Source: Halothiobacillus sp. (GTDB lineage Bacteria > Pseudomonadota > Gammaproteobacteria > JAAZVP01). Taken from it: DNA of 62,549 nt. The position numbers were made by a program, and so were the translations under genes. Each line of letters begins with the position of its first letter. Within the stretch, counting starts at the first letter, position 1. Positions 8,364-12,023 of this stretch are shown in pieces. Below the pieces are notes generated by a model, which was given only the letters and a program-made list of their open reading frames with translations, did no database searches and was not told the DNA's origin. Location of the stretch: NCBI GenBank assembly GCA_018623495.1, contig JAAZVP010000007.1:1-62549 (forward strand), read 5' to 3'.

Positions 8364-9302
8364 TCAACCCCGCGCTCGGGGGATATGCAGGTCCTCCCCG
8401 CCCGCCGGCGAGCAGCGGATCTCCGGGTTCTCCCGCTCGATCAGTTCCATGGCCACGGCCGCGTTGCGCACGCGCTCGCGGATCATGTCGTCGTGGAAGC
8501 TCGGCGGGTTCCAGGGAGCGTAGATCTCGGCCTCGGAGGGCCCCGGCTCGATCTTGAAGTAGCAGGGGGCGGCGATGCGGGCGATCTCCGCGGCCTCGTA
8601 GAACCGCACGAAGCCCCCCATGGAGTTCACCAGGCAGAGATAGACATCCAGGGGAATCCGGATGGCGCTGCGGATGGCGGAGAGCATGGGCAGGGTCAGG
8701 TCGGCGAGGGGGTTGAATGTGTCGGCACCGAGCATCTCGGCGATCCTGGCCCCGGCGGGGTTGGCCTGGCCGGCGAAGACCGAGAGCTTGAAGATCGAGT
8801 CGGGCGGGATCACTTCCCGCTCGCGGAGCTGGTCCATGAGCCACAACGCCCCCTCGTCGGCCACCAGCGCGCCCCGGAAACCCGCCTCGGTACAGCGTTC
8901 GAAGTCACGGATCCAGTGGCGCAGGCGATCCATGCCGCGCAGGCGCATGCCCGAGACCAGCCCCTCCTGGGTGACGATCTGGCGGCCGGTGTCCCAGGCC
9001 CGGCGGGGGCCGAGGGTCATCACCACCTCGATGCGGTTGTCGCGGGCGATGTCGGCGAAATCGTCGAGTTCCTGGTGCGTCAGGTAGGTGGCACCGCCGA
9101 CGGTGGCGATGATCCGGTGGACCGGCACCGACTGGCGCTCGGCCTCGCGCACCAGCGTCTCCAGCGAGGAGGCCCGCTCGACGCCGGAGATCTCGATCCG
9201 GTAGTGGCCGCCGTCGGGGAAACGGCTTTCCGAGCCGGGCAGGGTGTGGTTGTCGGTCGCCGGCAGCCCCAGTTCTTCCAGTGCCTCTTCCAGTCCTTGC
9301 AT
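8364..9302 (-). CDS. Peptidase U32-family-like protein
   Basis: 312 residues without signal peptide or membrane helix. The order of motifs, HYRIEISGVE near the start, VPVHRIIATVGGATYLT, LRGMDRLRHWIRDFERC, LVADEGALWLMD, GADTFNPLADLTLP and PLDVYLCLVNSMGGFVRFYE, matches short TIM-barrel-like proteins usually annotated as U32 family peptidases. Members of this short subgroup have no proven peptidase activity. GGAGG precedes the ATG. It is divergent from a DapA-like aldolase and the two -10 hexamers overlap at 9344-9350, so the pair is probably co-regulated and may act in one catabolic pathway. The family name is from recall; the function is unknown. Confidence 0.55.
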   Translation of the reverse strand: MQGLEEALEELGLPATDNHTLPGSESRFPDGGHYRIEISGVERASSLETLVREAERQSVPVHRIIATVGGATYLTHQELDDFADIARDNRIEVVMTLGPRRAWDTGRQIVTQEGLVSGMRLRGMDRLRHWIRDFERCTEAGFRGALVADEGALWLMDQLREREVIPPDSIFKLSVFAGQANPAGARIAEMLGADTFNPLADLTLPMLSAIRSAIRIPLDVYLCLVNSMGGFVRFYEAAEIARIAAPCYFKIEPGPSEAEIYAPWNPPSFHDDMIRERVRNAAVAMELIERENPEIRCSPAGGEDLHIPRARG

Positions 9303-9381: not shown

Positions 9382-10443
9382 ATGGTCCCCACACCCCAGC
9401 AGATCCTTGCCGACCCCGTGGGCCGATACCCGGCCACCACGGTGGCGGCCTTCGACCCCACCCGCGGCGAACTGCCCCGGCGCGAACTCGACCCCGGGCG
9501 CACCGTCGCCTTTCTCGAACGCCTGGCCGAGGCGCAGGTGCCGGCGGTGCTGATCGCCTCGTCCACCGGCCAGGGCCACCTGCGCACGGTGGATGAACTG
9601 GAGGCCTGGCTGGCCTGTGCCGCCGAGGCGCGGCTGGGGGAGACGGCGCGCATCGCCCTGTTGCGACCCGAGGATGGCGAGGCGGTCAACGCGCGCCTGC
9701 TCGACCGGCTGGCGGACTGGGGTTACCCGGTGGTGTTCTTCCGCCCGGGCACCGACCTTCCGCCGGGGGCGGGCGACGACGCCGTGGTCGCCAATCTCGC
9801 CCCCTGCGTGCAGGCGGCCGCCCGGCGTGGCCTGGCCATCGGCCTCTACACCATTCCCGACGTTTCCGGCACGGCGCTCACCCCGGAGGCGGCGGCCCGG
9901 CTGCTCAAGGGCGTCGGCGGCGACAACATCGCCGCGATCAAGGTCACCGAGGCGGATTTCGACGCCAGCACGGCGCGCTTTCTCGCTCACCCCGACCTCG
10001 AGCACCTGAAGATCGTGCAGGGCTGGGACCCGCACCTGGCCCGGGCCCTGCGCGCCGGTCCCGCGTGTGATGCGGGCGGGCGCCAGCGGGCCGGGATCAC
10101 CTCCGGGCTGATGTCGCTGGCCCTCCACCAGTACCAGCACATCCTCGCGCAGGCCGCCGAAGAGGACTGGGACGAGGTGGAGCGGGCGCAGCGGGCCGCC
10201 AGCGCCATCTTCGCCTCGATGCAGGATTCGCCGGGGAGCTTCGCCGATCTCCAGCGGGCCAAGTACGTCATGGGTCTCGGCCACCCGCTCACCGGCGAGG
10301 TGACCGGCGAGCAGGTGGAGCGCATCTTCGCCGCCCTCGACGGCCTGGAGCGCGAGGCGGATCGTGCCCGCATCGCCCGGGGTCTCGACCTCATGGGCGA
10401 TGGACCCTTCCACGGGCGACTGGCGGCGCTCGCCGGGGAGTGA
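9382..10443 (+). CDS. DapA/NanA-family (class I aldolase) protein
   Basis: 353 residues with the TIM-barrel pattern of dihydrodipicolinate synthase/N-acetylneuraminate lyase enzymes. VLIASSTGQGHLRT near residue 55 replaces the usual GTTGE segment; GLYTIPDVSG near 155 gives the central tyrosine and proline; AAIKVTEADFD holds the Schiff-base lysine (K187). Such enzymes make or break C-C bonds of pyruvate-type 2-oxo acids. It is unlikely to be DapA itself because the threonine-rich loop is altered. ATG 9382 is preferred over an upstream TTG (9355) because GGGAGG lies 8 bases before it. Divergent from the U32-like gene. Confidence 0.7.
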   Translation: MVPTPQQILADPVGRYPATTVAAFDPTRGELPRRELDPGRTVAFLERLAEAQVPAVLIASSTGQGHLRTVDELEAWLACAAEARLGETARIALLRPEDGEAVNARLLDRLADWGYPVVFFRPGTDLPPGAGDDAVVANLAPCVQAAARRGLAIGLYTIPDVSGTALTPEAAARLLKGVGGDNIAAIKVTEADFDASTARFLAHPDLEHLKIVQGWDPHLARALRAGPACDAGGRQRAGITSGLMSLALHQYQHILAQAAEEDWDEVERAQRAASAIFASMQDSPGSFADLQRAKYVMGLGHPLTGEVTGEQVERIFAALDGLEREADRARIARGLDLMGDGPFHGRLAALAGE

Positions 10444-10449
10444 TCGGCA

Positions 10450-11133
10450 TCAGGGCGAGGCGATGCGCAGCATCTCCCGCACGCCCACCTGCGACTCGTA
10501 GTCCACCGTGACCACCTCGCTGGCGAGCCCCCGGCCATCCAGGTGGCGGCGCAGGGGATCGAGGTGGGGCGAGCGTCGCCCGTCCAGGTCGGCCACCGGG
10601 AAGATCCGCACCTCCCGGGCGACCCGCGAGAGCTCCGCCACGGCCCGGAGGTGGAACGACCGGTCGAGGTGCCGGCTGTAGAGAAACAGCAAATGGGAGA
10701 CCAGCGCGACCCCGAAACGGTGATCGGCAAAGGGCAGGTGGGGCAGCCGGGCCGGCAGGTAGCGTCCCGCCAGCCGGCCATCCGGGAAATCGGCGAGAAA
10801 GATCTGCATGGCGCGGTCGCGGGCCGCGACCAGGCTGGCCGGGTCGGGATGGCGATCCCAGCAAAACCGCGTGGCGTTGGCCGCCAGCTGGCGCTCCATC
10901 TCCGGCAACACCTCGGCGATCCGCCGGGCGATGGCCGCCCCCGGGTGACGATAGAGGGGATCGGCGGAGACCACCCGGCCGCCGCGACGGGTGGCCCCGG
11001 CATTGAAGGCGGCCGGACCGCCGCCGCAGTCCAGGATCGCCGATTCCGCGTCGTTGTCGCCCAGGGCGAACATGGCCCGGTATTCGTCGTATGAGCGCCC
11101 GAAGGGCACGATGTCGTCCAGCTCGAATGCCAT
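10450..11133 (-). CDS. SAM-dependent class I methyltransferase
   Basis: 227 residues. ILDCGGGPAAFNAGA (from about residue 33) is motif I of Rossmann-type methyltransferases with the GxGxG-like SAM loop; VVSADPLY ends the next strand in the acidic residue that binds ribose, and LPFADHRFGVALVSHLLFLY is motif IV and beyond. The target is not evident. It converges on the DapA-like gene with a 6-base gap. Upstream, at 11161-11195, there is an intrinsic terminator only 27 bases before the start codon, so expression may depend on read-through or attenuation. Confidence 0.75.
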   Translation of the reverse strand: MAFELDDIVPFGRSYDEYRAMFALGDNDAESAILDCGGGPAAFNAGATRRGGRVVSADPLYRHPGAAIARRIAEVLPEMERQLAANATRFCWDRHPDPASLVAARDRAMQIFLADFPDGRLAGRYLPARLPHLPFADHRFGVALVSHLLFLYSRHLDRSFHLRAVAELSRVAREVRIFPVADLDGRRSPHLDPLRRHLDGRGLASEVVTVDYESQVGVREMLRIASP

Positions 11134-11159
11134 GGGTCGAGACTCCGGGGAAATCGGTG

Positions 11160-11357
11160 CAAAAAAATGCCGCGGGCCCGAAAGGCCCGCGGCATGGCAT
11201 GAAACGATGGACCCCGGTCGGCGGAGTCAGCGCCATCGCAACGTCTGCCGGCACACAGGCCTGCAAGCGCGGCCCGGCCAACAATGCCGGCGAAGACGTG
11301 CGTCGGGACCCGGGACGGTCATCGCGATTGGTTTCCCTTGAAAGCGGTGGGGGACGA
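11160..11357 (-). ncRNA. Candidate structured small RNA or regulatory leader
   Basis: No protein fits this gap, yet the minus strand has a promoter-like pair (TTGCAA at 11392-11387, 17-base spacer, TAGCCT at 11369-11364) and, about 195 bases on, a strong intrinsic terminator. Between them is a long imperfect hairpin: CGATGGACC (11205-11213) pairs with GGTCATCG (11317-11324), then a large internal loop, then 11241-11253 pairs with 11285-11299 (ACGTCT plus GCCGGCA against TGCCGGC plus AGACGT). This rod with a central bubble and a terminator suggests a stable RNA or an attenuator leader of the methyltransferase gene. A 31-codon reading frame inside it is judged spurious. Confidence 0.4.
11161..11195 (-). 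terminator. Intrinsic terminator (minus strand)
   Basis: TGCCGCGGGCC (11168-11178) and GGCCCGCGGCA (11184-11194) form an 11-base-pair stem with a 5-base loop. On the minus strand it is followed by seven T residues (11167-11161). No annotated gene ends just upstream of it, which is the reason for proposing a short transcript from about 11357. Confidence 0.8.
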
Positions 11358-11411
11358 CGGGAAAGGCTAGACTCGGGGCCGATCGATTGCAACGCCGAAA
11401 CCGGAGGACCC

Positions 11412-12023
11412 ATGGACATCCAGGAAGCCATCCGCGCGCGCCGCGCGATCAAGCAATTCGATGCCGACTATGCCATGAGCGAGGCCGAGGAGGCACGGCT
11501 GTTCGAGCTGGTGCGCCTCTCGCCCACCGCCTTCAATATCCAGAACTGGCGTTTCGTGGTCCTGCGCGACCCGGCACTGCGTGCCCGGGCACGGGAGATC
11601 GCCTGGGACCAGTCCCAGGTGACCGACGCCTCGCTGTTCGTGGTCCTCTGCGCGGACCTGGCCGCCTGGGAGAAGGACCCGGCGCGCTACTGGAGCCATG
11701 CCCCGGAGGCGGTGGCCCGGCAAATGGTGGGCGCCATCGACGCCTACTACCGCGACCGGCCCGACGTCCAGCGCGACGAGGCCATGCGCTCCTGCGGCAT
11801 TGCCGCCCAGACCATGATGCTCGCCGCCCAGGCCCTCGGTTACGACTCCTGTCCCATGGACGGTTTCGACTTCCAGGCCATGGGCGAGCTCATCGGCCTG
11901 CCGGAGGACCATGTGATCGGCCTCGCCGTGGCCGTGGGCAAGGGCACCCGGGAACCCTGGCCCCGAGGCGGGCAGCTGTCCGCCGGGGAAGTGATTTTCC
12001 GCGATGGCTTTGCCGGCCCGTGA
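11412..12023 (+). CDS. Nitroreductase family protein
   Basis: 203 residues. MDIQEAIRARRAIKQFD is the FMN-phosphate-binding N terminus of the nitroreductase family, followed by SPTAFNIQNWRFVVLRD (second flavin-contact motif) and, near the end, a VIGLAVAVGKG segment. These are cytoplasmic, usually dimeric FMN enzymes that reduce nitro-aromatics, quinones or other acceptors with NAD(P)H; the physiological substrate is rarely known. ATG 11412 has GGAGG upstream, and a TAGACT -10 at 11368-11373 overlaps the divergent promoter proposed for the small RNA. The DJ-1/PfpI gene follows closely and may be cotranscribed, suggesting a redox-stress pair. Confidence 0.85.
   Translation: MDIQEAIRARRAIKQFDADYAMSEAEEARLFELVRLSPTAFNIQNWRFVVLRDPALRARAREIAWDQSQVTDASLFVVLCADLAAWEKDPARYWSHAPEAVARQMVGAIDAYYRDRPDVQRDEAMRSCGIAAQTMMLAAQALGYDSCPMDGFDFQAMGELIGLPEDHVIGLAVAVGKGTREPWPRGGQLSAGEVIFRDGFAGP

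Follow-up and report, generated by a model that had tools for sequence, protein, structure and literature searches.

What does a strong transcription stop do when it lies between two divergent genes and points into one of them? The question is raised by a gap in a contig of Halothiobacillus sp., of which we analysed a stretch of 62,549 nucleotides, called the window throughout. A minus-strand putative methyltransferase gene (10450-11133) and a divergent plus-strand nitroreductase gene (11412-12023) border this gap. The initial annotation had described in it a minus-strand unit of about 195 bases with its own promoter, a rod-shaped hairpin and a terminator but no protein, recalling either 6S-type RNAs or a leader that controls the methyltransferase gene by attenuation. 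The features discussed are the following.

10450 to 11133, minus strand: putative class I SAM-dependent methyltransferase of 227 aa, located downstream of the terminator (family matches, profile)
11143 to 11146, minus strand: GGAG, the ribosome-binding sequence that serves the methyltransferase gene, 9 nt ahead of its ATG and just past the terminator, as read from the sequence
11161 to 11195, minus strand: intrinsic terminator, ATGCCGCGGGCCTTTCGGGCCCGCGGCAT stem-loop with a tail of 7 T (stem of 13 bp, -27.1 kcal/mol, z -5.11)
11203 to 11325, minus strand: predicted rod-like fold with internal bubble (z -1.29, within the range of the composition)
11240 to 11301, minus strand: upper hairpin of the rod (z -2.23, 8/300 shuffles)
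11364 to 11392, minus strand: candidate promoter TTGCAA-17-TAGCCT (7/12 matches, chance level)
11412 to 12023, plus strand: divergent nitroreductase-family gene (PF00881, E 1.1e-36)

A strong terminator in a non-coding gap

The methyltransferase gene begins with an ATG at 11133, a start that is backed by homologues. Its own protein gave no match at E 0.001 in a Pfam search. Among 20 members of its family, 15 match Methyltransf_11 (best E 6.2e-06) and 12 match Methyltransf_25, and over a short stretch the profile of the family hits a SAM-dependent methyltransferase structure (E 0.0018); hence the product is probably a methyltransferase. As for the gap, its six frames score from -0.34 to -0.63 bits per codon in codon usage compared to a mean of +0.41 for the window's genes. 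The gap is thus non-coding in all six frames, in agreement with the absence of a protein noted in the initial annotation. A possible leader peptide, the 31-codon ATG frame from 11322, was also rejected, its codon usage being unlike that of genes (-0.64 bits per codon vs the same gene mean); a leader peptide is expected only in peptide-controlled attenuators.

The terminator, read from 11195 to 11161, was confirmed. Its stem is formed by 13 perfect base pairs, 10 of which are G-C, closed by a 3-nt loop and followed by 7 T (U in the RNA), and none of 300 shuffles folded equally well. It is real and far above chance, and none of the other four strong terminators of the window is as stable. Furthermore, it points into the methyltransferase gene: the U-run ends at 11161, 27 nt before the ATG, with the GGAG sequence in between, so that there is no room for a separate promoter at this place. 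Whereas each of these four follows a predicted gene of its own strand at a distance of ~27-100 nt, no minus-strand gene is predicted for at least 3.5 kb ahead of this one. Given this placement and the lack of a gene ahead, the stop may act as an off-switch in the leader of the methyltransferase gene (by attenuation or by plain damping), may close a small RNA, the methyltransferase then depending on read-through, or may be a leftover. Only the terminator is solid here, and the RNA drawn around it is speculative.

A possible leader of the methyltransferase gene

The strength of the stop, its position without promoter space and the non-coding gap with no minus-strand gene ahead all argue for a 5' leader of the methyltransferase gene, with an intrinsic terminator immediately before the ribosome-binding site. 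A strong stop directly before a ribosome-binding site is indeed the usual layout of attenuator leaders. Because of this layout, and because RNA 3' ends are common in the 5' UTRs of E. coli, pointing to premature termination (PMC7815308), we favour the attenuator-like leader, albeit tentatively. RNA polymerase would start between the two divergent genes, or further to the right and antisense to the nitroreductase gene, and would run leftwards. Most of it would halt near 11161 and let go of a non-coding RNA no longer than about 200 nt, while the fraction reading through would allow expression of the methyltransferase. Such read-through might be regulated, although an antiterminator made of RNA only is not visible.

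Indeed, an RNA antiterminator was rejected, as no competing pairing of any weight was found. With the 3' arm of the terminator blocked in the folding, the 5' arm was still not captured by the leader, and this arm could pair over 5 bp with 11357-11361 only in a transcript that begins at 11361 or beyond. Antitermination by a protein would do without such a pairing, and the wider class of attenuators is thus kept. Hence, regarding the attenuator leader proposed at the outset, the position of the terminator fits but a convincing antiterminator is lacking. The layout is like that of the transcription attenuators and 5'-UTR terminators mapped in E. coli (PMC7815308), in that an intrinsic terminator immediately precedes a gene's ribosome-binding site. 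It differs in that neither an antiterminator nor a coding leader peptide nor a ligand-binding fold was found here.

A more specific form of the favoured leader would be an undescribed, lineage-restricted RNA whose upper hairpin (11240-11301) senses a signal linked to the methyltransferase, or is bound by a protein acting in antitermination, and so releases the terminator; we consider it very improbable. If the attenuator-like leader as such is true, it would add one more gene, from an uncharacterised methyltransferase family, to those under premature termination in the leader. By itself it changes little, and this putative leader is ordinary in kind.

Relatives of the gap and of its flanking genes

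The relatives compared have only the class in common with the source genome. Searched by DNA in 56 and in 369 genomes of this class, the gap returned only short chance-like pieces, the best of them at an E near 1e-3 per genome with hundreds of genomes searched, and a DNA search of plasmids and phages gave no homologue. A covariance model of the rod, built on one sequence and hence of low power, matched only itself in the 369 genomes. Nitroreductase relatives, with identities up to 66%, are spread across the class; in the 29 of them that were examined no comparable terminator was found at that place, and two (L050 and L059) show weak hairpins at a similar distance. A search for methyltransferase relatives gave two in genome contigs and none in viral contigs. 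Among all relatives of this gene, the closest stand in genomes G121 (62%) and G235 (61%), where no terminator occupies the corresponding position. Thus the arrangement is absent from the relatives of either flanking gene and, as far as can be seen, would be private to this lineage. The missing terminator in these relatives, a leader without homologue and a promoter at chance level all count against the leader reading.

In both G121 and G235, the same strand carries in order an NAD(P)H-oxidoreductase-like gene, a terminator (AAGCCGCAGGTCC...GGACCTGCGGCTTTTTTT), a GNAT gene and the methyltransferase gene. The GNAT gene is intact in G235 and broken in G121, where the stretch ahead of the methyltransferase gene (L035) has kept a decayed piece of a GNAT acetyltransferase (56% over 43 aa, E 1e-14). 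This bears on a second explanation, in which the stop once ended a minus-strand gene that has since disappeared or given way to the gap and the divergent nitroreductase gene, and now does little. The same-strand upstream terminator behind the oxidoreductase-like gene in both relatives speaks for it, as do the 18 of 21 bases that the window and G121 terminators have in common on their 3' side (E 0.02) and a methyltransferase family that appears to move between loci. However, a search of the window gap for remnants of the oxidoreductase or GNAT gene found none, the neighbourhoods are wholly different, and the likeness of the terminators is weak since G-C-rich GCCGC terminators are common. Moreover, so strong a stop ahead of an intact gene would need some escape. 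Taken together, we regard a relic or borrowed terminator as rather doubtful.

Promoter, fold and the small RNA alternative

The initial annotation had also given the unit its own promoter, with hexamers at a 17-base spacing. A promoter pair equal to or better than TTGCAA-17-TAGCCT was reached by 69% of the gap shuffles, sites as good occur 5 times per kb per strand across the window, and a stricter promoter scan found none. While the terminator and the start codon are present, the best promoter candidate in the gap is therefore no better than chance, and the promoter could not be confirmed.

As for the long rod-shaped hairpin with a central bubble, folding allows such a rod across about 11203-11325, including the stems first described, but its stability does not exceed that of shuffles (27/300 as good). 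The 162-nt leader without the terminator is at z -0.1, with 132/300 shuffles as good, and the z of -2.34 obtained for the whole 198 nt is due to the terminator. The upper hairpin is the sole part of the rod that stands modestly above shuffles. As a yardstick, 128-nt stretches across the window have their 5th percentile at a z near -2.5, which is a rough guide given their different length. With a G+C content of about 70%, stable-looking folds are to be expected, and the stability of the rod is what the composition gives.

These results weigh on a third explanation, a free-standing regulatory sRNA gene that would span about 160-200 nt, possess a promoter and terminator of its own and act in trans, the methyltransferase being expressed by read-through. 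An intergenic, non-coding location, a strong terminator with a U-tail and the modestly stable upper hairpin would suit such a gene, but promoter and fold are both at chance level, no homologue was found in the 369 genomes and no Rfam family reached its cut-off at the unit. The best match of a permissive Rfam scan there was the Burkholderia sRNA BcKCsr2 (RF02883), at 22.5 bits vs a cut-off of 40; the terminator hairpin and U-tail do align with it, whereas outside the terminator many pairs are broken. A free-standing sRNA is thus less likely than the leader, though, like the relic terminator, a serious rival to it.

Comparison with known RNA families

A scan of the whole window against Rfam gave no family at its cut-off, the SAM/SAH riboswitches included, and the known riboswitches and sRNAs were rejected as identity of the unit. 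In the permissive scan, the 6S RNA model (RF00013) did not match the unit even at E <= 10. The source genome has its own 6S RNA outside the window, on another contig (G000:C64:53321-53502, L001), with 77.4 bits vs a cut-off of 46.4. The unit is like 6S RNA in its length near 190 nt and in the rod with a bubble that can be drawn, but unlike it in having no model match and a fold no stabler than shuffles. Hence, a 6S-like RNA or a SAM/SAH metabolite riboswitch, to which the drawn rod and the putative SAM-dependent enzyme downstream had lent some appeal, is highly improbable given the absence of an Rfam match, the 6S RNA elsewhere in the genome and a rod within the range of the composition. As identities of the unit, the known 6S and SAM/SAH families, both named in the initial annotation, are refuted, and removing these readings is a useful outcome.

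Surroundings of the methyltransferase gene and of its homologues

Next to the methyltransferase gene, the neighbouring gene at 9382-10443 (plus strand) matches the DHDPS family barely above the cut-off (23.4 vs 22.1 bits), and no family was matched by the one at 8364-9302 (minus strand) in Pfam and NCBIfam searches. The rod was also considered as an integron attC site and this was rejected, since no such site was seen at the window copy of the methyltransferase gene, although attC-like sites flank its homologues in several genomes of the class. Such flanks were seen in L006, L007, L008 and L010, judged mostly by eye, a simple pattern scan having caught some of them. They suggest that the methyltransferase family may travel as an integron gene cassette. 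In L006, GTTAGAT is found upstream and ATCTAACAATCG...CGTTAGGT downstream, and L010 displays the attC-like sequences GCGTTATAC and GTGTATAACAATGC.
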